21,987 nt of DNA from IMG/VR virus record IMGVR_UViG_3300021962_000731, positions 1 to 21,987 of that record, one strand, 5' to 3'. Below the pieces are notes generated by a model. The model did not search any database and was not told where the DNA came from. It worked only from the letters and a program-made list of their open reading frames with translations. The DNA is from a virus. The translations under genes and the position numbers were made by a program. Below, one piece after another: positions 3,376-15,961 of this stretch (position 1 is its first letter; each line of letters opens with the position of its first letter).

Positions 3376-4081
3376 TCTCACGATAATTCATACGTATTAT
3401 AATGAAAACACACTACTCGAAACTCAACTCGAGAGGTGGAATGTTTACAACCAACCAGTAAACATTATTTTGATTGATGATGGATCGCAGAAAGTTCCTG
3501 CGATTGATGTGATAAAACAGCACAAACTTAAAGATTATATTAATTTTTCTTTATATCGTGTTACAGAAGACATCGGATTCAACAGTCATGGTTGCCGAAA
3601 TCTTGGTGCCAGACTAGCAAATACTGATTGGTTGGTGTTCCTAGACATCGACTATACGATTCAACCATCAGACCTAGCAAGATTAAAAGCAGAACCCCTC
3701 GATCCTGATACATGGTATGAAATGAATGCCAAGTTTAAGGGTCGAGGCGATCCGTACATGGCATTAAATCAGTTTGTTATTACAAAGAAAATGTTTTTAG
3801 ATCATGGTGGTTATGATGAATCTTTTGTTCCGTTTCACCATGGCGATAGAGAATTACTATCAAGTCTAGAAACCAGACATAACAAGAAAAATCTTGATTG
3901 GTTAAACTTAACATGTCGTCGCGGCGGTAGAAAAGCAAGAGTAGATGACACTCTCATGATTCCAGTCTATGACGATGAGAACATGCTATTACATACACCG
4001 CGATTTGATATAGAATCCATCGTACGCAAAGACACTAAATTGAATTTTACATGGGAAGAAATTGTTATAAATAGGGGGTAA
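3362..4081 (+). CDS. Family 2-like glycosyltransferase (GT-A fold)
   Basis: A 239-aa protein that should transfer a sugar from a nucleotide-sugar donor. The N-terminus LTIIHTYYNE begins a Rossmann-like strand. IILIDDGS (residues 35-42) is the nucleotide-binding Asp motif, and GFNSHGCRNLGA (72-83) is the typical ribose/phosphate-contacting segment. VFLDIDYTI contains the metal-binding DxD at D95-x-D97. GGYDESFVPFHHGDRELL (149 onward) corresponds to the catalytic-base region of GT2 enzymes. An upstream ATG at 3338 has no ribosome binding site; TTG 3362 has GAGGAG ten bases before it and fits the family N-terminus better. It overlaps the previous gene by 14 bases. The acceptor (virion protein, host glycan or modified DNA base) is unknown; the late promoter directly after it and neighbouring structural genes make a virion protein plausible. 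Confidence 0.85.
   Translation: MSRNNLTIIHTYYNENTLLETQLERWNVYNQPVNIILIDDGSQKVPAIDVIKQHKLKDYINFSLYRVTEDIGFNSHGCRNLGARLANTDWLVFLDIDYTIQPSDLARLKAEPLDPDTWYEMNAKFKGRGDPYMALNQFVITKKMFLDHGGYDESFVPFHHGDRELLSSLETRHNKKNLDWLNLTCRRGGRKARVDDTLMIPVYDDENMLLHTPRFDIESIVRKDTKLNFTWEEIVINRG
4066..4073 (+). promoter_or_regulatory. T4-type late promoter octamer (TATAAATA)
   Basis: Exact TATAAATA overlapping the last codons of the glycosyltransferase gene, 26 bases before the ATG at 4100. The spacing to the ribosome binding site (AGGA, 4091-4094) leaves room for a short leader. It would drive the ligase-fold gene, the nucleotidyltransferase and the structural genes behind them late in infection. Confidence 0.55.
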
Positions 4082-4099
4082 CATTATATTAGGATTCCC

Positions 4100-5218
4100 A
4101 TGCACAGTTTCTTATCATTTATTTCCGAAGCAGCAATACTTCACATTGAGCATCCATCCGATAGATTATTCGATGGACCACAACCAGCAAAACATGCGCT
4201 TAAAACGCTGAAGCAGGTTTCCGCCAGTAAAGCACCGACAATGACTCGCAAGATTGATGACAGAATGTCATTCAATGTTATTCGTAGAGCAGACGGTAAA
4301 GTCGGGGTTAAGTATAAGGGAACAGGTTCCTCTTACAATTTCAGCGAACAAGATATTGAAGACCAACATAGTCATAAACAATATCTTGCACATCCATTAA
4401 AACTTTTGTTGAAGCATCTTCCTAAAGTTATTCCGCATACTCCAGGCGAGTATCAGGGCGGATACATGTCAGATCGCGAATCTAGGGAGCATGAGAATGG
4501 GAAGATTTCTCATACACCAAACACAATTAAATATGAGACAGACGCTGATAGTCCTGAAGGTAAGGCGCTTGCTAAATCTAAAGTAAGTGCCGTCATTCAT
4601 ACTAAGATTACACCAGCAGGGGCAAAACCTCTGACAAATATGACTGGTTTCAACCATCATCCTGATGTTCATCTTGTTCAACACCTCGTGTCAAAAGATC
4701 AAGCGGTTATTCCGAAAGAACATAAGTCTAAAGCAGATGAACATCTGAAAAAGGCAGAACAAATGATGGCGTCACATACATATGACCATCATGTCGGGCA
4801 CGAACAAACACTTCGCCAGTATATCAACTCGACATTGTCAACCAATGATACACCTTCGACTCAGGGGTATAAGAGTTATCTTACGAAGTGGCATCAGAAA
4901 AAGATTGATGCAGTTAAAACTGACAAGACGAAGGTTGCTAAAAAGAAGGTGTTGGATGACGCGATTGATCATGTCTCCAAACACCAAAAGCAATTCAATG
5001 ATACCTTAGAAATACATCACCACTTGCAACAGGCAACTAATCACCTTTCGAGAGGATTAGATTCTTCTGGTGCAGGTGGTTTCACTACATCTATCGCAGG
5101 TGCTGCAGCAGGTGGCGAAGGGCACGTCTATAATGGACTGAAGGTTGTCGATCGTCAAGGATTCTCGGCAGCAAATCGCGCTCGTAGTGAAATGTTCAAG
5201 GCGAGTAAGGGACAATGA
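4100..5218 (+). CDS. Ligase/nucleotidyltransferase-fold protein (DUF6267-like) with capsid-targeting N-terminus
   Basis: A 372-aa protein resembling a family of marine T4-like phages that I recall as DUF6267. Features suggest the covalent nucleotidyltransferase fold of RNA/DNA ligases: K51-I-D-D in the place of the KxDG nucleophile motif, YQGGY at 118-122, SHTPNTIKYE at 137-146, a hydrophobic VSAVIHTKI strand at 162-170, EGHV at 340-343 and LKVVDR at 347-352 (a motif V candidate). The canonical G of KxDG is D here, so activity is uncertain. The first ten residues, MHSFLSFISE followed by AA, resemble the T4 internal-protein capsid targeting sequence with its gp21 cleavage site. The gene follows a late promoter, has AGGA five bases before the ATG and overlaps the nucleotidyltransferase gene by ATGA. 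Function is inferred from motifs only. Confidence 0.75.
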   Translation: MHSFLSFISEAAILHIEHPSDRLFDGPQPAKHALKTLKQVSASKAPTMTRKIDDRMSFNVIRRADGKVGVKYKGTGSSYNFSEQDIEDQHSHKQYLAHPLKLLLKHLPKVIPHTPGEYQGGYMSDRESREHENGKISHTPNTIKYETDADSPEGKALAKSKVSAVIHTKITPAGAKPLTNMTGFNHHPDVHLVQHLVSKDQAVIPKEHKSKADEHLKKAEQMMASHTYDHHVGHEQTLRQYINSTLSTNDTPSTQGYKSYLTKWHQKKIDAVKTDKTKVAKKKVLDDAIDHVSKHQKQFNDTLEIHHHLQQATNHLSRGLDSSGAGGFTTSIAGAAAGGEGHVYNGLKVVDRQGFSAANRARSEMFKASKGQ

Positions 5219-5826
5219 GTGAAACACACCATCTGACTATCGGCAGATTCGCACCTGTTCATGCTGGGCATGCACTAATGATCAACCATGTTTTAAATGC
5301 AGCAAGATCTGATAATGCACAACATACTATTCTTACAACTGCAACACATGATGGTAAAAAGAATCCACTGACTCCAGATCTTAAAGTAAAGCATCTAAAG
5401 AGAGCATTTCCTTCTGCAAATGTTGAAGCATTGAGTAAAGGTTCTCCGACATTATTACACCACTTGTCTAAATTACATAGTCAAGGTGTGAAGAATATTG
5501 TTGTTCATGCTGGATCCGATAGAGCACATGATTATCATTCCCTAATAAACAAGTATAATAATGTCGAAGGTCGCCATGGGCATTACAATTTCGATTCGAT
5601 AAAAGTGAAGACAGTAGGTGCAGTTAGAACTGATGCTGACGAAGGTGTTGCTGGTGCATCCGCAACTAAGATGCGCAATGCAGCATCCTCAGGTGATGAG
5701 AAAACATTCCATTCCATGGCACCAAGTTCTATGTCTAAACCACACAAACATGAGATGTATAAAGATGTTCGTCGTGGTCTTGGAATCCAAGAGTCAATTT
5801 CATTCAAACAATTTCTAGGAATCTAA
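5215..5826 (+). CDS. HxGH-type nucleotidyltransferase (cytidylyltransferase-like)
   Basis: A 203-aa member of the HxGH nucleotidyltransferase superfamily (cytidylyltransferase, NMN and pantetheine-phosphate adenylyltransferases). The start has TIGRFAPVHAGHALMI, with H16-x-G-H19 for nucleotide phosphate binding. The C-terminal half has GASATKMR at 147-154, which occupies the position of the ISxTxxR signature. The segment NNVEGRHGHYNFDSI (115-129) is characteristic of the version found in many aquatic T4-like phages. The real substrate is not known. The protein ends ESISFKQFLGI; SFKQF is the core of the capsid-targeting-like element seen at the N-terminus of other proteins in this window, here at the C-terminus. 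It overlaps the ligase-fold gene by ATGA, and the pair probably acts together, as covalent nucleotidyl transfer and nucleotide activation are chemically related steps (inference). Confidence 0.85.
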   Translation: MSETHHLTIGRFAPVHAGHALMINHVLNAARSDNAQHTILTTATHDGKKNPLTPDLKVKHLKRAFPSANVEALSKGSPTLLHHLSKLHSQGVKNIVVHAGSDRAHDYHSLINKYNNVEGRHGHYNFDSIKVKTVGAVRTDADEGVAGASATKMRNAASSGDEKTFHSMAPSSMSKPHKHEMYKDVRRGLGIQESISFKQFLGI

Positions 5827-6676: not shown

Positions 6677-7189
6677 ATGTTCGGTATGATCCCATTACCA
6701 TATAAGTTACTGGCAGGTGTTGCCTTGATACTTGGTGTATTTGTATTTGGTTACATGAAGGGATCTGCTCATGCCGAAGTGGAACTGCAAAGATTTGCTG
6801 CTAAGAATGCAACATTAACTGCAGATATGGAAAAGAAAAATTCAGAGATCTCCACTGAAGTGGTGACTCAATATGTTGACCGTGTAAATACAATTAGGGA
6901 AAAAGAATATGTCTATCGCGATGTCGCCAAAACTGTTGTGCCTTCTCAGTCTGTCCTTTCTAATGGTTGGGTGTTCACGCACGACGCTAGTGCCACAGGC
7001 AGTAATGCCGACGCCACCAGAAGTTCTGATGCGTCCCCCTCAGGTATTGCAGACAATCAAGCCCTCTTCACCATCATCGGAAACTACGCAACCTGTCAAG
7101 CAAACGCCGAGCAATTGATTGCTCTTCAGAAATGGATTGCGGATAACAAGACAGCGATCGACGAACTAAACAAGAAAGCGAAAAAGTAA
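6677..7189 (+). CDS. Inner-membrane spanin (i-spanin, Rz-like)
   Basis: A 170-aa protein with the layout of an i-spanin, the inner-membrane half of the complex that fuses inner and outer membranes at the last step of lysis in Gram-negative hosts. After a short N-terminal segment there is one hydrophobic span at about residues 10-26 (LLAGVALILGVFVFGYMKG). A charged helical periplasmic region (about 33-75) follows, likely coiled coil, and the C-terminus is Cys-containing and helical. The assignment is strongly supported by an o-spanin gene nested entirely inside it in another frame at 6909-7118. It begins after an AAGGAAA ribosome binding site, and its stop TAA shares its last base with the ATG of the next gene. 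Unusually, it lies about 7 kb from the endolysin and holin genes. Confidence 0.82.
   Translation: MFGMIPLPYKLLAGVALILGVFVFGYMKGSAHAEVELQRFAAKNATLTADMEKKNSEISTEVVTQYVDRVNTIREKEYVYRDVAKTVVPSQSVLSNGWVFTHDASATGSNADATRSSDASPSGIADNQALFTIIGNYATCQANAEQLIALQKWIADNKTAIDELNKKAKK
6909..7118 (+). CDS. Outer-membrane lipoprotein spanin (o-spanin, Rz1-like), nested
   Basis: A 69-aa protein read in the +1 frame completely inside the i-spanin gene. It has a short basic start (MSIAMSPK), a hydrophobic signal core (LLCLLSLSFLMV) and a lipobox ending MVGC, which places the lipidated Cys at residue 22. The mature part is short and rich in Pro, Ser and Thr (TPPEVLMRPP, KPSSPSSET), as is typical of o-spanins. AGGGA lies eight bases before ATG 6909. 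Signal peptide, lipobox, Pro-rich mature region and embedded position together make this one of the clearest small genes in the window. It would be anchored in the inner leaflet of the outer membrane and bind the i-spanin in the periplasm. Confidence 0.85.
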   Translation: MSIAMSPKLLCLLSLSFLMVGCSRTTLVPQAVMPTPPEVLMRPPQVLQTIKPSSPSSETTQPVKQTPSN

Positions 7190-9618
7190 TGGCAGAAAAA
7201 AAGTATATCGGCAAACCAGGAAAACAAGACGATCCTTGCTGGAAGGGTTACAAGCGTGTCGGCATGAAAAAGAAAGGCGATAGAATGGTTCCTAACTGTG
7301 TACCTGAAGCAAGAGAAATTATCGAGAAGGCGAAAGCAAAGTTGAAGAAAGATCCATTGACTGGCGCCAAGATCGATTCGCAGCGTTTCATTCTACCCGA
7401 AGAAACTAACCTCGAAGAAGCATCATATAGTCATCGTGACTATGCTTCCCACAGTTTAATGCACCCTGACATGGCAAAGCACATGAAGAAGGGTGACGAG
7501 GTAGATTATTATCTCCCAGGAAATGGCGATAAGCATTCTGGTATTGTTGCAAAGAACGATGGCGCAAGCGTTCATATTCGTGCCCACAAAGACGGTCAAG
7601 TTGCCAAAGGTCCATTGCATAAGTTTAAGGTTACTCCGCATCTTCCAACGAAGACTAATGAAGAAGCAGAACTTGATGAAGCACTGACTCGTGTTACTTC
7701 TGGTAACAAGGGTTATGGTTACCATGGTAACGTAGAAGCACGCGACGATGCTGAGAAAGATAAGAGATATTCTGCCATGCATCGTTATGCTAAGAAACTA
7801 GTAGGCGATGCTGGACATCTTCAAGATGCGAAGAAACCAAACGTAATGGTAAAACACTTCCTTGACTCTGCGCATGGTCGTCACATTGCTGACAATCCAA
7901 CGGATAAAAACATCACTAGCAGATTCGCTCACTTCAAGAAGTCATATAATCCTGCGATGCATGAAGAAGTTGAAATTGATGAAGGCGTAACTAATCCAGA
8001 AATCAAGAAAGCATATGCTGATCTTATAAAAACTCCTGGTGGTTCTTCGGAGCGCAAATCTGCTATCCGTCGTTACAAGAGTCTTCGTCAGAATGCTGTC
8101 AAGGAAGAAGTAAACATAGACAAGTATGCCGACATGTTGATAAAGCGCGATAAACAAAATCTTAGTAAAAGTCATGTAGTCCACGCAGCTCGTGTTGCGG
8201 GCGTAGATCATAAGAAACTTATGTCCGCTGTTAATCAAAAAGTAGGTCGCATTAAAGAAGAATCTGAGATCGAAGAAGCATACGGCATGTGGAAGGTAGA
8301 CTTCCCTAAGCAACATGCTGGCAAGGCAGTCGCTGCTGGTTCGGTTCACGTTAAGGCGCAGAACACTGCTCATGCTCACAAGGTTGCAGCAAAGAGAGTC
8401 GGTGTTGATCATAAGATGTTCAAGTCGAAGGTCACTAAGTCGAGCATTCTTCCAGAGGGCGTTCAACTTGATGAAGTCTTGGGTAAGGACAACGAATGGG
8501 GTCGTCCAGAACTACGCAAGAAGTTTGCTGCTATGACTCCAGGACAAGAAGGTATGACAGCAGATAAGATTCCTTCATTCGATCCACGTTACGACGATGT
8601 AACTACTCAATACTGTGGCGGAATCAGAGAAGGTTATCTTGCTGAGATTTCTGCCAAGGGCGCAGAGGCACGTGCTAAGTTCCAATCAAAAGTCAGACAA
8701 ACACTGGCAGATCCTAAGAATATTGCAAGAGCAAAGAAAACTCTTGCTAAGAAAAAAGAAGCAGAAAAAGCAAAAGAACCGCCGCACCTTGTAATGCAAC
8801 TGCGCAAAGCAGTAAGCATTGGTTCTAAGGTTCACTTCCAAGATGGTCAGCATCACACAATTGCCCCTAACCATGCTGATGTATTCATGAACAAGTATAA
8901 CTCTGCCAAGTCTTCTATTGAAAAAGAAGCACTGCAGAAGCGTGCTCACAAATCGCATGCTGAATTTATGAAGACAATTGCTGAAAGTGTTCACGAGAAC
9001 TGTGGAACTCCAGACTGCTGCCAGATGTGTGACACCGCTGAAATGGGAACGCACCATGTTGATTCATATGAAGCGCACAAGGGTTCGGGTGATCAAATCT
9101 CACCAGTAATTTCACACGATGATGAAGATATTCGCTTCCAAGATTTCGATGAAGAAGCATTCGAAAAAGAACTAGAAGCAGATGTTCTTGCTCTTTCGTG
9201 GGATGATTTAGTAGATCTCTATGACGAAGATGAAATCGAATATGATGACTCACCTGAAACAGAAGAAGGCGAAGAACTAGAGGAAGGTATTACTCCTGCT
9301 GGTCGTCTCAAGAAAAAATTCAATGCGATGCGTTCTAAGAGTCGTCGAATGATGGCAAGAAATATTGCAATCAAGCGTGTGTCTTCACCAGAAAAACTTA
9401 AATCGAGATCGATTCGTGCTGCTCGTCGCATGGTTTACAAGAGACTGTTGCGTAATAGAGATATTTCGACAGTATCTTCATCTGAAAAGACACGTCTCGA
9501 AGCACAGATAAAGCGTATGGCACCAATGGTTGCTCGTCTATCTGTCAGAGTCATGCCAGCAGTTCGTAAACTTGAGCAGTCAAGAATCAAGAACAGCAGA
9601 ATGAAGAAGAGGAAGTAA
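7189..9618 (+). CDS. Large modular protein with repeated prohead-protease-like sites (candidate head polyprotein)
   Basis: An 809-aa protein built of short unrelated-looking segments separated by acidic stretches ending in L/I-x-E. Candidate gp21-type cut sites follow E77 (NLEE/A), E164 (ELDE/A), E265 (EIDE/G), E363 (EIEE/A), E429 (QLDE/V), E486 (YLAE/I), E599 (TIAE/S) and E699 (ELEE/G). The N-terminus contains DPCWKGYKRVGMKKKG and VPNCVPE, a motif common in marine T4-like head proteins. Residues 322-352 and 394-417 carry copies of a module (SKSHVVHAARVAGVDHKKL) that recurs in the 10380 gene. A Cys cluster lies at 605-614. Residues 641-699 are extremely acidic (29 Asp/Glu in the last 60 residues before the E699 site) and the last 110 are extremely basic (36 Lys/Arg). 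I infer a capsid-internal precursor. No enzymatic domain is recognised. Its ATG overlaps the spanin stop by one base. Confidence 0.75.
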   Translation: MAEKKYIGKPGKQDDPCWKGYKRVGMKKKGDRMVPNCVPEAREIIEKAKAKLKKDPLTGAKIDSQRFILPEETNLEEASYSHRDYASHSLMHPDMAKHMKKGDEVDYYLPGNGDKHSGIVAKNDGASVHIRAHKDGQVAKGPLHKFKVTPHLPTKTNEEAELDEALTRVTSGNKGYGYHGNVEARDDAEKDKRYSAMHRYAKKLVGDAGHLQDAKKPNVMVKHFLDSAHGRHIADNPTDKNITSRFAHFKKSYNPAMHEEVEIDEGVTNPEIKKAYADLIKTPGGSSERKSAIRRYKSLRQNAVKEEVNIDKYADMLIKRDKQNLSKSHVVHAARVAGVDHKKLMSAVNQKVGRIKEESEIEEAYGMWKVDFPKQHAGKAVAAGSVHVKAQNTAHAHKVAAKRVGVDHKMFKSKVTKSSILPEGVQLDEVLGKDNEWGRPELRKKFAAMTPGQEGMTADKIPSFDPRYDDVTTQYCGGIREGYLAEISAKGAEARAKFQSKVRQTLADPKNIARAKKTLAKKKEAEKAKEPPHLVMQLRKAVSIGSKVHFQDGQHHTIAPNHADVFMNKYNSAKSSIEKEALQKRAHKSHAEFMKTIAESVHENCGTPDCCQMCDTAEMGTHHVDSYEAHKGSGDQISPVISHDDEDIRFQDFDEEAFEKELEADVLALSWDDLVDLYDEDEIEYDDSPETEEGEELEEGITPAGRLKKKFNAMRSKSRRMMARNIAIKRVSSPEKLKSRSIRAARRMVYKRLLRNRDISTVSSSEKTRLEAQIKRMAPMVARLSVRVMPAVRKLEQSRIKNSRMKKRK

Positions 9619-9619
9619 G

Positions 9620-9907
9620 ATGCTTTCATTTAAAGAATTTGTTGCTGAAGCAGCAGTTGACGGCAAGGGTCATAAGAGTTCTACTGGTGGTCTAACTCAG
9701 AAGGGTCGCGACTATTACAACAACAAGTATGGCGGCAATCTACAGGCACCAGTAACAACCAAACCTTCTAAGTTGAAGGCAGGCAGTAAAGCAGCGAATC
9801 GTCGCAAGTCTTTCTGTGCTAGAATGTCTGGCGTCGATGGTCCAATGAAAGACGAAAAGGGTCGTCCGACTCGCAAGGCACTAGCACTAAGAAAATGGAA
9901 TTGTTAA
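9620..9907 (+). CDS. DUF6321-like small basic protein with capsid-targeting N-terminus
   Basis: A 95-aa basic protein. The N-terminal decapeptide MLSFKEFVAE followed by AA closely resembles the capsid targeting sequence of T4 internal proteins (M-K-T-Y-Q-E-F-I-A-E) with the gp21 cut after the last Glu. The rest resembles a family I recall as DUF6321 from T4-like phages: GGLTQKGRDYYNNKYGGNL, then RRKSFCARMSGVDGPM, and a C-terminus TRKALALRKWNC. It lies between the large modular protein and the Dps-like gene, two bases after the former's stop. After cleavage the product would be about 85 residues and strongly basic, which suits binding of packaged DNA (inference). The function of the family is not established. 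Confidence 0.8.
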   Translation: MLSFKEFVAEAAVDGKGHKSSTGGLTQKGRDYYNNKYGGNLQAPVTTKPSKLKAGSKAANRRKSFCARMSGVDGPMKDEKGRPTRKALALRKWNC

Positions 9908-9908
9908 C

Positions 9909-10346
9909 ATGGATGAACTGAACACATCAATGAAGATAGTGCTCGCAAATACTTTTGCGATGTATTTCAAAGCACATGGACATCACTGGAATGTAGAAGG
10001 CAAAGACTTCTCCCAAATGCATGACTTCTTTTCGAACATCTATGAAGAACTATTCGCTGCGGTTGATCAGATTGCTGAGCAGATTCGTGCACTAGATGAT
10101 TATGCACCATATGGACTAGATACTGTGTCTAGCATTGCAACCATCAAAGATTCATCAATCAATGGTAACAATATCCCTTCGATGCTTCAAGATTTAATGG
10201 ATGCTAATGCGGCAGTCATCGAAGCATTGAATGCTGCACATAAATTAGCAGAAGCAGAAGGTAACAGAGGTCTTGTTAACCATCTTGAAGGGCGTCTTGA
10301 TGTTCATGCTAAACATGGTTGGATGCTTCTCGCAACCTCAAAGTAA
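9909..10346 (+). CDS. Dps-like ferritin-family protein
   Basis: A 145-aa protein of the Dps/ferritin-like family, which forms dodecamers that oxidise and store iron and may coat DNA. The signature region HGHHWNVEGKDFSQMHDFF (residues 23-41) is followed by NIYEEL and VDQIAEQIRAL. Against E. coli Dps the intersubunit ferroxidase residues H51, H63, D78 and E82 correspond to H26, H38, D53 and E57. The D67 position falls on S42, so one metal ligand is changed. Length is near that of short Dps proteins, and there is no long basic N-terminal tail for DNA binding. It begins two bases after the DUF6321-like gene and ends just before a late promoter. Its setting among head-protein candidates suggests that it acts in or around virion assembly, or protects phage DNA from oxidative damage; neither is shown. 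Confidence 0.85.
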   Translation: MDELNTSMKIVLANTFAMYFKAHGHHWNVEGKDFSQMHDFFSNIYEELFAAVDQIAEQIRALDDYAPYGLDTVSSIATIKDSSINGNNIPSMLQDLMDANAAVIEALNAAHKLAEAEGNRGLVNHLEGRLDVHAKHGWMLLATSK

Positions 10347-10379: not shown

Positions 10380-12125
10380 ATGAGACTAGAACAAACTATT
10401 AGGTCAACAATGACTGAAGCGATGGATATGGATGGCAGACTCGACCAGTTGGTTCGCGCTGGTTTGATGCCAACAAGTTCGTTGCCACTTCTGAAGCGTG
10501 CCATTTCTAGAATGCATGCTGGTATGTCACTTCAGGGTGCTGAGCGTGATGTAATGAACATGTTCATCAACTCGATGATGTTCATTGTTCTCGGTGATGA
10601 CACAGTATTCAATAAGGCACGTGCTGGTGCTAAGTCATATGCTGCTGAAGAAGTTGAACTCGACGAAAATGCTCCGATCGTTGCTCATCTGACTAAACGT
10701 TACGGTGACAACATTCGTAAGAGTCATGTTATGTCTGCTGCCAAAGACTTCGGTGTCGATCCGTCAAAACTTTCAAAGGCAGTTCGCAAGAAACTCGGTA
10801 AGTCAATGCTCGATGAAGCAAAAGAAAAGCAAGAGTATGACTACGAAGGTGACATGGCAATGAATGCTCAGAAGAATGAAGAAGTCGAGGTAATCGACGA
10901 ACTCTCAAAGAAGACCATGGGTTCTTATGTTAAGAAAGCATCAGGTGCTGAACAACCAAAGAATGTAATGAGTCCAAAGAATGTTCCTCTGACAAAGATC
11001 GCTGCATACCAAGGTGACAGTGAAACAGGACACTTCGGTTCAAGATTCAACCAAGCAACTTATGATAAAGCAGAGCGTCTCCGTAAGAATCGCGAGACAG
11101 GTATCAAGAGAGCAGTTGATAAACTTGCCAAGGAAGAAGTCGAGATTACCGAAGCATCAGTGGCAGATGTAGCAAAAACTGCACATCTACATGTTAGAGC
11201 AGGTAAGCATGACAGTATCCATACTGCTATTCAATCTGCAGTTAATACGCATTTCCCATCTTCGGTGCACTCCGCGGTGACACGTAAGAAGGTTGCTGCC
11301 CAAGCGTTGAATAAAATTCAATCGATGAATAAATCTAAGATGACCAAAGAAGAAGTCGAACAGGTCGATGAGATCTCGAAGGCAATGGCAGGTCGCTATA
11401 TTAACAAAGCGAAAAACTCTATCGATCTAACTGCCTGGAGACAAGGGTATAAAGAAGCCGGTGCTGGTAGTCCTTCGAAGCATATGGAAAAGAAGTTATC
11501 GAAGCGTCACAAAGGTATCGAAACCGCTGTCAAGAAACTGACTAAGGAAGAGTCTGAGCAGATTGATGAAAATCAGCAGTATGTTGAAATCACTAATGCG
11601 CATCACGGCGGCAAGTCATATATTCCTGTTCACCCGACTCAGGCATATGCTGCTCTGAATCACTACAACAGTTTCTCACACAACAAGAAAGTTCGCATCA
11701 TCGATCAAAAGCAACATGATGCAATTCATGCCGCTAAGACTGCAGTCAAGGAAGAACTTGACTTTAACGAAGCATTCGAGCAGATCGACGAACTCTCAAA
11801 GAAGACTCTCGGTTCTTATGTTAACAAAGCAGCAGAACGTATCGGAACAAAAGGTGTTAGTGCTGGACTAAGGATTGCTGCTGACGAGAAGTCGAGTGGA
11901 AACTTTAAGGACATGGGCAAACGCCAAAAGGGTATCTCGAGAGCAGTTAATAAACTGACAAAAGAAGATATTGATGCAGTAAAGCAAATGAACGAGTCAT
12001 ATAAGACTGCATTTGAAACTGCTCTTAATGAATATGGTATCAAGTCTCCCTCGGAACTTGATGAATCGAAAAGAAAAGAATTTTTCAATCACGTAGATCT
12101 AGAATTTAAAAAGGGAGACAATTAA
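10380..12125 (+). CDS. Second large modular protein with repeated modules and prohead-protease-like sites
   Basis: A 581-aa protein of the same design as the 7189 gene product. Candidate L/I-x-E cut sites follow E96 (ELDE/N), E146 (MLDE/A), E174 (VIDE/L), E258 (EITE/A), E397 (QIDE/N) and E471 (QIDE/L). Three copies of one module are visible. Each begins [DE]-E-[LI]-S-K and GSYVKKA or similar (residues 174-188, 331-344, 471-485). After a variable insert each ends with KGI-x-RAV-x-KLTKE or similar (239-253, 378-391, 517-530). A further module (residues 97-140, RKSHVMSAAKDFGVDPSKL) is shared with the 7189 gene. The last about 40 residues (KTAFETALNEYGIKSPSEL, RKEFFNHVDLEF) form another conserved phage module. 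It follows its own late promoter. Scaffold/core or cleaved internal head protein is the best guess. Confidence 0.75.
   Translation: MRLEQTIRSTMTEAMDMDGRLDQLVRAGLMPTSSLPLLKRAISRMHAGMSLQGAERDVMNMFINSMMFIVLGDDTVFNKARAGAKSYAAEEVELDENAPIVAHLTKRYGDNIRKSHVMSAAKDFGVDPSKLSKAVRKKLGKSMLDEAKEKQEYDYEGDMAMNAQKNEEVEVIDELSKKTMGSYVKKASGAEQPKNVMSPKNVPLTKIAAYQGDSETGHFGSRFNQATYDKAERLRKNRETGIKRAVDKLAKEEVEITEASVADVAKTAHLHVRAGKHDSIHTAIQSAVNTHFPSSVHSAVTRKKVAAQALNKIQSMNKSKMTKEEVEQVDEISKAMAGRYINKAKNSIDLTAWRQGYKEAGAGSPSKHMEKKLSKRHKGIETAVKKLTKEESEQIDENQQYVEITNAHHGGKSYIPVHPTQAYAALNHYNSFSHNKKVRIIDQKQHDAIHAAKTAVKEELDFNEAFEQIDELSKKTLGSYVNKAAERIGTKGVSAGLRIAADEKSSGNFKDMGKRQKGISRAVNKLTKEDIDAVKQMNESYKTAFETALNEYGIKSPSELDESKRKEFFNHVDLEFKKGDN
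10893..10940 (+). repeat. Direct repeat copy 1 (module start inside the 10380 gene)
   Basis: A 48-base segment identical at 44 positions to 11784-11831, including a run of 22 or more identical bases at its start. It encodes IDELSKKTMGSYVKKA. DNA-level identity beyond what the protein requires points to a fairly recent internal duplication or to gene conversion. Confidence 0.85.
11784..11831 (+). repeat. Direct repeat copy 2 (module start inside the 10380 gene)
   Basis: Second copy of the 48-base repeat at 10893-10940, 891 bases downstream and in the same reading frame. It encodes IDELSKKTLGSYVNKA. Recombination between the copies would delete 891 bases (297 codons) and keep the frame open. 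Confidence 0.85.
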
Positions 12126-13432: not shown

Positions 13433-13795
13433 ATGATTGAACTAAATAATGATACCTTCTTGATTTATGCTATTAAAAATTATGACAATCCCAGTTGTAA
13501 TGGGATGCCTGATTTAGAAGAAGACATGAAGAGATTCAAATATATAAAACGATTGTTTAAGAGATATGAAAAAACTGATGTCTTGAATGAACGGTTGATT
13601 TTAAATCATATAATTGTTTTATATAATGTATTTGGTAATGCTGCAACTAACATGCTGTTTTACAAAATAGAAGAGAAATATTGGCACTACCTGAAAACAT
13701 TCCTCGTTTTTCTCAATAGAATAACGAGCAGTTCTATGGTCGAAGTCAACTTAGACCATAACATAGTTACAAAGTTAAGGGAACTTAATGTCTAG
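13433..13795 (+). CDS. Conserved T4-like phage protein of unknown function (DUF7207-like)
   Basis: A 120-aa protein starting at ATG 13433, directly after the upstream stop. The frame is open further upstream, but that part overlaps the virion gene and is an artefact. The sequence (FLIYAIKNYDNP, DMKRFKYIKRLFKRYE, NERLILNHIIVLYNVFG, MLFYKIEEKYWHYLKTFLVF) belongs to a widespread small family of T4-like phages. I recall it under the label DUF7207, though the number is from memory. It is mostly alpha-helical, basic and aromatic-rich, with no catalytic signature. It overlaps the next gene by 8 bases; these two genes form a pair that I recall as conserved in related phages, though I cannot confirm this here. 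Confidence 0.75.
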   Translation: MIELNNDTFLIYAIKNYDNPSCNGMPDLEEDMKRFKYIKRLFKRYEKTDVLNERLILNHIIVLYNVFGNAATNMLFYKIEEKYWHYLKTFLVFLNRITSSSMVEVNLDHNIVTKLRELNV

Positions 13796-14339
13796 ATTTG
13801 TAGATGCACTGATAACATATCGTATTCTAAGGTTGTTGACTACACCTTTCGATCAACAGGATGCATTTCGTCTAGGATTGATCGATAAGCATGGCAATCG
13901 ATTGAAGAAAGAGAACGAGATAAATACCACTGAAGAACAAGAGGCATATAGTCTGCTTCATAGAATGGTATTTAGATTAAAACGAATCATCGAGAAGGTT
14001 CCTATGGACAATAAGAACTTCCTATCATTCGCTGCTGCTGTTGCTTTGGTAAGAGAGCAGGTTGAATATGATGATGAAATATTAGAGGAAGTTTTTTACA
14101 TGACACAAGAACGCCAAGATGTTAAGGATCTCGCTGAAGAACTCGAGACAGGAAAAATCCAGTCATTCAAACAGTTTATTGAAGAGATGGGTGTTGGTGG
14201 TGGTGGAGTCGCAGGGATTGGTATTCCGCATCCAACAAAAGCAAACCAAGCAGAACCTGGACTTACCAAGAGTCAGCAGAAAAAATATAAAAAGAAAAAC
14301 ACAGTAGGTGCACCTGCTGTACTGATTAGAAGGAAGTAA
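13788..14339 (+). CDS. Conserved T4-like phage protein with internal SFKQFIEE element
   Basis: A 183-aa protein. The N-terminal 100 residues (FVDALITYRILRLLTTPFDQ, FRLGLIDKHGNRL, LLHRMVFRLKRIIEKVP) are a helical domain common in T4-like phages, function unknown. Residues 126-133 read SFKQFIEE, the same element as the capsid-targeting-like N-termini of the 4100 and 9620 products. Here it is internal and followed by a glycine-rich stretch (MGVGGGGVAGIGIP) and a basic C-terminus (SQQKKYKKKN). If the prohead protease cuts after E133, a 50-residue basic Gly-rich peptide would be released. The ATG has AAGGGA upstream and overlaps the previous gene by 8 bases. Confidence 0.75.
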   Translation: MSRFVDALITYRILRLLTTPFDQQDAFRLGLIDKHGNRLKKENEINTTEEQEAYSLLHRMVFRLKRIIEKVPMDNKNFLSFAAAVALVREQVEYDDEILEEVFYMTQERQDVKDLAEELETGKIQSFKQFIEEMGVGGGGVAGIGIPHPTKANQAEPGLTKSQQKKYKKKNTVGAPAVLIRRK

Positions 14340-14785: not shown

Positions 14786-15961
14786 ATGACACAACTAACT
14801 GAACATTTTACTCTCGGAGAAATGATTGTCTCGCCAACTGCAAAGCGTCTTGGCATTCCTAACACACCGACTGCTGAACATATTGAGAACATGCGTTACT
14901 GTTGCGAGAAAATTCTTGAACCAGTTCGTGCTAAGTTTGGTCCAGTAACAATCAACTCCTCATATCGTGCACCACTTGTTAACAAGGCAGTTGGTGGATC
15001 TGCTACATCCCAACACGTTAATGGTCAAGCAATTGACTTTGAAGTAAAGGGCGTAGACAATAAGAAGGTTGCTGATTGGGTTGCTGACAATCTCGAGTTT
15101 GACCAAGTTATCCTAGAATTCTATGCCGCTGGTGACAAGAACTCTGGTTGGGTCCATGCTTCTATTAAAAAGGAAGGCGGAAACCGCAAGCAGCGTCTAG
15201 TTGCTACTAAGTCCAAGGCAGCTGGAACAAAGTATACTCCTGTTGCCGACTTTGATCCAAGCACAACAAAGGAAGCAGGCGCGCCTGTGGTAGAAGCAGT
15301 CGCGCAGGTTGCTAAGGCGGGAGTCCAAGCGCCAACTGTTGCTGGTCTTGGTCCAATGCAAGCACTTCAAGCAAAATGTGGTGTCGCTGCTGATGGTAAG
15401 TGGGGACCAGGAACATTCAAGGCAGCGAGAGATCACTATAAGTTATCGACTGCTGGTGCTGCTCACTTCTTCGGGCAGTGCGCTCACGAGTCAGGTGGTT
15501 TCAAGGTATTCCAAGAGAACCTGAACTACAGTGACAAGGGTCTCAACGGTATCTTCAAGAAGTATTTCCCAACAATCGCTTCGACTGCAGGATATGCTCG
15601 TAAACCAGAGAAGATTGCCAACAAGGTTTATGCTAATCGTATGGGCAATGGTCCAGAGTCATCGGGTGATGGATGGAAGTTCCGTGGACGTGGTCCGATC
15701 CAGTTGACTGGTAAGAGCAACTATACTCAATTCGCTCAAGACATCGGTCGTCCTGATGTTTTGACAAATCCAGATATCGTAGCAACCGAACTCGCATTCG
15801 AATCAGCACTATGGTTCTTTAACAAGAACGGACTGTTCGCAATCGCTAACAAGGGCGTTACCGATGCAGTTATTGGTCAAATTACTCGTCGAGTAAATGG
15901 TGGAACTCATGGTCTAGATGACCGTATTAAGAAAACAAAACAATTCGCAGCATGGGGATAA
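14786..15961 (+). CDS. Two-domain endolysin: M15 peptidase, peptidoglycan-binding linker, GH19 muramidase/chitinase
   Basis: A 391-aa peptidoglycan hydrolase with two catalytic domains. Residues 1-128 are a D-Ala-D-Ala carboxypeptidase-like M15 domain: SSYRAP at 58-63, then SQHVNGQAIDF with zinc ligands H77 and D84, and WVHAS with H124. Residues about 140-185 are an Ala/Lys/Pro-rich linker. Residues about 187-220 (GPMQALQAKCGVAADGKWGP) are a peptidoglycan-binding repeat. Residues about 222-391 are a GH19 chitinase/lysozyme-like domain with catalytic E235 in QCAHESGGF, a second acid E244 in FQENLNYS, and the substrate-cleft motif GRGPIQLTGKSNY. It would cut both peptide and glycan strands. There is no signal peptide, so release by the adjacent holin candidate is expected. 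AAGGAG lies seven bases before the ATG. Confidence 0.93.
   Translation: MTQLTEHFTLGEMIVSPTAKRLGIPNTPTAEHIENMRYCCEKILEPVRAKFGPVTINSSYRAPLVNKAVGGSATSQHVNGQAIDFEVKGVDNKKVADWVADNLEFDQVILEFYAAGDKNSGWVHASIKKEGGNRKQRLVATKSKAAGTKYTPVADFDPSTTKEAGAPVVEAVAQVAKAGVQAPTVAGLGPMQALQAKCGVAADGKWGPGTFKAARDHYKLSTAGAAHFFGQCAHESGGFKVFQENLNYSDKGLNGIFKKYFPTIASTAGYARKPEKIANKVYANRMGNGPESSGDGWKFRGRGPIQLTGKSNYTQFAQDIGRPDVLTNPDIVATELAFESALWFFNKNGLFAIANKGVTDAVIGQITRRVNGGTHGLDDRIKKTKQFAAWG

Follow-up and report, generated by a model that had tools for sequence, protein, structure and literature searches.

The window, a virus record of 21,987 bases that we analyzed over its whole length, carries 28 genes, and its nucleotide matches in a phage collection were confined to a marine virus and to T4-like phages of Synechococcus, with about 71 to 73% identity across the gp41 helicase gene. 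Among its other genes are an Rz-like spanin candidate (6677-7189) and a fusion of an M15 peptidase with a GH19 lysozyme-like domain (14786-15961). We studied two consecutive genes that share the letters of an ATGA stop/start overlap, a spacing class that is among the most frequent in homologous loci (Table 1). The first encodes a DUF6267 protein. The second encodes an HxGH adenylyl/cytidylyltransferase, named "cytidyltransferase" in phage annotation and therefore called CyT here. The original prediction, made from the sequence, had described a ligase-like protein with KIDD, EGHV, and KVVDR motifs overlapping an HxGH nucleotidyltransferase with an SATKMR motif and an SFKQF tail. Both open reading frames (ORFs), the overlap, and all of these motifs are present, and the family matches show that neither ORF is a chance reading frame. 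A T4-late-promoter-like element lies upstream of the DUF6267 gene, within the 3' end of the preceding glycosyltransferase ORF.

Table 1. Features of the DUF6267/CyT locus (window coordinates)
Feature	Coordinates	Strand	Remarks
T4-late-promoter-like element TATAAATA	4066..4073	+	34 nt 5' of DUF6267 start
DUF6267 protein, predicted ligase-superfamily nucleotidyltransferase fold, KIDD clade, 372 aa	4100..5218	+	Pfam PF19782, E 6e-38
Capsid-targeting-like N terminus MHSFLSFISEA	4100..4132	+	Compare T4 IPII/IPIII, MKTYQEFIAEA
Motif I, K51-I-D53-D54	4250..4261	+	K51, predicted lysyl-AMP nucleophile
Q119-G-G121, motif III-like position	4454..4462	+	Sister-clade acid D121 missing here
All-helical insert, residues 206-321	4715..5062	+	Secondary structure from model; between motif III-like and motif IV regions
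Motif IV, E340-G-H-V343	5117..5128	+	E340 and G341 kept in 98.8% of 247 relatives
Motif V-like, K348-V-V-D-R352	5141..5155	+	K348 98.8%, V350 98.8%, R352 97.2% (247 relatives)
ATGA stop/start overlap, DUF6267/CyT	5215..5218	+	Shared letters of both ORFs
HxGH nucleotidyltransferase CyT, NMNAT/PPAT-like, 203 aa	5215..5826	+	phrog_3041, E 4e-43; phrog_395, E 3e-41
GRFAPVHAGH, T/HxGH signature with GR lead-in, residues 10-19	5242..5271	+	G10, R11, G18, and H19 invariant
SATKMR, (S/T)xxR-type motif, residues 149-154	5659..5676	+	S149 and R154 invariant
SFKQFL C-terminal tag-like tail, residues 196-201	5800..5817	+	Tail in 48/59 short KIDD-clade CyTs

We modeled DUF6267 from 41 sequences, comprising the window protein and proteins of viral loci, and the model (pLDDT, 91.3; pTM, 0.86) has the nucleotidyltransferase core that had been anticipated. 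Foldseek searches with the model gave weak E values (best, 0.08), with DNA ligases in the top rows. When the matches were realigned with VIA-align 2, RNA or DNA ligases made up 49 of the 50 best rows, and the ligase rows had Z scores of 5.7 to 8.5 and a root mean square deviation (rmsd) of about 4 to 5 Å over 157 to 195 residues. A Naegleria RNA ligase ranked first, with a Z score of 8.5 and an rmsd of 4.1 over 183 residues; further rows included T4 Rnl1 (Z, 7.3), a tRNA ligase (7.0), LIG1 (6.9), REL1 (6.8), and Rnl2 (6.6). Since a Z score near 8 may say little by itself, the case for a ligase fold is built on the uniform list of rows and the order of the motifs, and the ends of the aligned ranges are consistent with K348 lying near motif V. 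Profile comparison of DUF6267 with T4 Rnl2 relatives using hhalign was not significant (E, 0.08 to 0.29), although the best local match paired the EGxV motifs of the two families, and the ligase assignment thus rests on fold and motif order. Profile searches of the PDB with DUF6267 found no credible relative and no ligase, and neither NCBIfam nor PADLOC gave a match. We rejected rhinovirus VP1 as a relative, since its matches were short, fell only at profile positions 59 to 95, and had E values above 0.1.

DUF6267 shares with the RNA and DNA ligases (Naegleria RNA ligase, T4 Rnl1, T4 Rnl2, REL1, and LIG1) the fold and the order of a motif I lysine, a motif IV EGxV, and a motif V lysine. Unlike these enzymes, it has no significant sequence similarity to the group, its core is interrupted by the helical insert of about 115 residues, and the model runs from motif V to the C terminus as a single helix with no OB or equivalent C-terminal domain. 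The window protein further differs from them in having KIDD in place of KxDG and in lacking the motif III acid. Its predicted structure places DUF6267 in the covalent nucleotidyltransferase (ligase) fold group, as a divergent member.

All 247 DUF6267 relatives that were scored keep K51 and D53; Q119, N141, and Y145 are likewise invariant, and the EGxV of motif IV is present. The second lysine of motif V (KxK) is missing; K348 is kept, V350 stands in place of the second lysine, and R352 is conserved. A tree of 68 representatives split into two clades with full support. One, the KxDG clade, has G54 and D121 (146 sequences), and the other, the KIDD or KLDD clade to which the window protein belongs, has D54 and G121 (101 sequences). 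This exchange is strict, with no exception among the sequences that are readable at both positions, and the window protein accordingly has neither a full KxDG box nor the motif III acid. Only nine positions differ fixedly between the clades, and eight of these are at 54, 56, 71 to 73, 76, 79, and 121. Compared with the KxDG clade, the KIDD clade has lost an acid at 121 and gained one at 54, and it has lost a lysine at 76 and gained lysines at 71 and 73. Aligned by eye, D121 appears to match E99 of T4 Rnl2, and K76 appears to match R55 of the same enzyme. The original prediction had called motif I a degenerate nucleophile box and had made conservation of K51, EGxV, and KxVxR among homologues a test of its reading. 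All three are conserved, and the description as degenerate was misleading, since only the fourth position of the box differs and it exchanges strictly with position 121. Because K51, D53, EGxV, and KxVxR are near-invariant in the 247 relatives, the motif I box reads as remodeled rather than decayed, and by the alignment the active site of the window protein is remodeled, not degenerate. Both clades are monophyletic, so the exchange may be a single historical event, and it serves as a natural test of which positions in a ligase-fold active site can hold the acid.

The CyT model (pLDDT, 90.7) had NadM as its best Foldseek match (E, 3.6e-6). Its VIA matches scored Z 13 to 15, with PPAT (14.9) and NMNAT (13.7) nearly tied, and in NCBIfam the NMNAT profiles ranked first but far under their cut-off (best, 22.4 bits versus a cut-off of 127). 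The NMNAT/PPAT fold and the T/HxGH and (S/T)xxR motifs are all present in CyT and are shared with NadM/NadR-type NMN adenylyltransferases and with CoaD (PPAT), as is the G10-R11 lead-in, which is typical of the NadM/NadR-type NMNATs. CyT differs from these enzymes in falling far under all of the NCBIfam equivalog cut-offs and in having no Nudix or NR-kinase domain. A number of related loci (L075 to L085 and similar loci) encode proteins of 500 to 1,100 aa in which an N-terminal CyT domain is joined to a zeta-toxin-like P-loop domain, DUF5824, DUF5661, or DUF6321; in L153, a DUF6321 domain is fused C-terminal to CyT. The SFKQFL tail was found in none of 46 long fused CyTs of the KIDD clade. In locus L119, the next ORF did not align as CyT and was removed from the alignment. 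The long CyT proteins resemble polyvalent phage proteins (PMC5512222), whereas the window has the domains as separate genes; a term search of that paper turned up neither DUF-named families nor HxGH enzymes.

We scanned viral contigs three times for the pairing of the two genes, with 80 DUF6267 loci in each scan. CyT lay downstream of DUF6267 in 80/80, 79/80, and 74/80 loci, or 233 of 240 metagenomic loci, counted as sequences, many of which are closely related and are not independent events. The seven loci without CyT are contig ends, with at most 253 bases left downstream. The co-occurrence of the two families, which the original prediction had proposed to survey, is therefore near-total. 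DUF6267 is known from about 470 sequenced phage records, chiefly of cyanophages, and all eight isolate genomes with DUF6267 that we inspected (S-SCSM1, P-SSM2, P-SSM5, ACG-2014f, S-PM2, P-HM1, Stenotrophomonas phage DLP6, and Vibrio phage 2.275.O) also have CyT. The genes are unlinked in several of these isolates; in S-SCSM1, DUF6267 is at 221 kb and CyT is at 89 kb of a 229-kb circle, whereas in the window they overlap. The pairing is not reciprocal, as the jumbo phages CBB and K64-1 have CyT and no DUF6267. Both proteins match phrog_455, a 764-position profile, in different parts (96 to 333 and 423 to 609), which indicates a fused protein in some phages, and one viral locus (L149) encodes a DUF6267-CyT fusion. 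In S-PM2 (L402, 103025-104804), DUF6267 is split across two frames, and the second half runs into CyT.

The element TATAAATA, the T4 late promoter core, occurs at most 80 nt upstream of 65 of the 101 DUF6267 genes of the KIDD clade, against a mean of 2.5 and a maximum of 10 after shuffling, and upstream of none of the 137 KxDG-clade genes. It was not found upstream of the tagged CyT genes of the KxDG clade either, which limits the late-promoter argument to the KIDD clade. The N terminus of the window DUF6267 is of the MxxFxxFIxEA type found in IPII and IPIII of the T4 record, whose N-terminal sequence is a capsid-targeting sequence (PMC9958956). This head-tag pattern occurs twice in the window's 28 genes against 0.007 expected from composition, and the earlier description of a capsid-targeting-like start thus stands. 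Compared with the T4 internal proteins, the cargo here would be a predicted enzyme that is putatively targeted to the head. A strict form of the pattern is on DUF6267 in 75 of 101 KIDD-clade proteins versus 1 of 139 KxDG-clade proteins, and it is on CyT in 63 of 127 KxDG-clade proteins versus 1 of 105 KIDD-clade proteins. The tag, where present, is therefore on one partner or the other, and the other half of the KxDG-clade CyTs do not carry the strict form.

Only two annotated coding sequences of S-SCSM1 have the strict tag pattern, and one of them is CyT, which starts MKSFLQFLKEA. This CyT (ORF91), a homologue of the window CyT, was detected in purified virions by mass spectrometry, with the authors' caution that it could be carry-over of a highly expressed protein (PMC9602691), and the homologous CyT of S-CREM2 (ORF154) was also found in virions by mass spectrometry (PMC10665884). 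The S-SCSM1 DUF6267 carries no tag and is not among the listed virion proteins, which fits the tag idea. In S-SCSM1 the tag is on CyT, whereas in the window it is on DUF6267, and CyT has only the C-terminal SFKQFL. An annotated virion protein of S-SCSM1, SSCSM1_93 (L323, 31627-31836), ends in RTFKEFLEYIE, a possible C-terminal head tag, and by analogy this protein suggests that the CyT tail could be one as well. From these patterns, DUF6267 and CyT of the window's clade look late-expressed and head-tagged. The proposal that the pair is packaged is thus backed indirectly, by the clade-limited late element and head tag and by the published mass spectrometry that detected CyT proteins in virions of cyanophages; the unlisted S-SCSM1 DUF6267 counts against it.

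The explanation that we favor, with a probability of roughly 0.6, is a coupled adenylyl-transfer module that is loaded into the head in the KIDD clade. DUF6267 would probably form lysyl-AMP at K51 and hand the AMP on, with a nucleic acid end as the most plausible acceptor. CyT would use ATP to adenylate a small phosphorylated acceptor; the most plausible one is NMN, which would give NAD+. In the KIDD clade, both proteins would be synthesized late and taken into the prohead through tags like those of the T4 internal proteins, at the N terminus of DUF6267 and possibly at the C-terminal tail of CyT, and the packaged proteins would then enter the cell with the phage DNA. The two reactions might be joined if NMN released from NAD+ by DUF6267 were re-adenylated by CyT, an attractive guess that we nevertheless hold to be unlikely. 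A bolder scenario, which seems to us rather improbable as a whole, makes a ligase-fold enzyme the head cargo of one clade of T4-like phages: its acid shifted from motif III to motif I, its gene gained a late promoter and the protein a capsid tag, and it is delivered with an NMNAT-like enzyme for NAD+/AMP chemistry on host nucleic acid or cofactors at ejection. Against the adenylyl-transfer module we counted the nonsignificant Rnl2 profiles, the weak Foldseek scores, the motif V without a second lysine, the missing OB domain, the S-SCSM1 DUF6267 that is unlisted in the virion, the isolates with unlinked genes, and CyT occurring alone in CBB and K64-1.

The modeled ligase fold would also suit a protein that acts as the phage's own polynucleotide ligase in replication or repair and replaces a missing DNA ligase, with CyT as an unrelated neighbor or a supplier of NAD+. 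In cyanophages the neighbors of the locus include recA-like genes, MazG, and the gp41 helicase, DUF6267 of the KxDG clade lacks both the late element and a tag, and searches of S-SCSM1 and of the records G007 (192 kb) and G008 (172 kb) gave no PF01068, PF01653, or PF09414 match. However, several of the searched records are fragments, and in one record of the KIDD clade (G003) an ATP-dependent DNA ligase is encoded in addition to DUF6267. The divergent motif V, the model without an OB-type domain, and the apparently late and head-directed character of the KIDD clade also speak against a replication or repair ligase, and ligation alone leaves the near-obligate pairing with CyT unexplained; we consider this explanation unlikely, although it is the main rival.

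We think it quite unlikely that the pair counters NAD-depleting defenses of the host by replenishing NAD+ or another cofactor, with CyT as the active NMNAT and DUF6267 as an accessory. Phage reconstitution of NAD+ has a precedent in NARP1 (PMC12774641), and an NMNAT-like CyT found in virions would be available immediately at entry. However, a search of nine records, of which several are fragments, gave no match to the Nampt/NAPRTase family (PF04095). DUF6267 had no PADLOC match and is not known as a component of NARP, and the NMN specificity of CyT is a prediction. A DUF6267 that keeps the ligase fold but is catalytically dead and serves as a head or core protein would be consistent with the late element and tag of the KIDD clade and with its noncanonical fourth motif I residue and motif III position. 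The retention of K51 and D53 in all 247 relatives and of EG and K348 at 98.8% makes this very unlikely, and the acid lost at 121 and regained at 54, like the lysine lost at 76 and regained at 71 and 73, suggests compensation and not loss.

The original prediction knew of no described function for the pair. For DUF6267 this holds in the open-licence literature that we searched, where no paper mentions either DUF6267 or PF19782. CyT by itself, in contrast, has been described as an NMNAT-like protein of virions. A virion-borne NMNAT-like CyT is therefore already known; what appears to be new is the ligase-type fold, the 54/121 exchange, and a late element and tag position that are specific to the clade. 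The assignment of a ligase-type core with K51 as the nucleophile gives the anonymous DUF6267 family a simple assay. It would also provide a context for the NMNAT-like proteins that recur in virions of cyanophages, and it may be relevant to the absence of recognizable ligases from some of these phages.

Other genes of the window have features that resemble head tags or head proteins. The second head-tag-like N terminus, MLSFKEFVAEA, belongs to a DUF6321 protein (9620-9907), which adjoins a gene for a Ferritin/Dps-like protein (9909-10346). The product of 13788-14339 contains an internal SFKQFIEE with a glycine-rich stretch after it, resembling this head tag or a prohead-protease site. Two large Lys/Glu-rich proteins (7189-9618 and 10380-12125) are perhaps head proteins processed by the prohead protease; 13 (I/L)xE sites were counted in the first, whereas shuffled versions averaged 6.3, and a further copy of TATAAATA lies 33 nt upstream of 10380.
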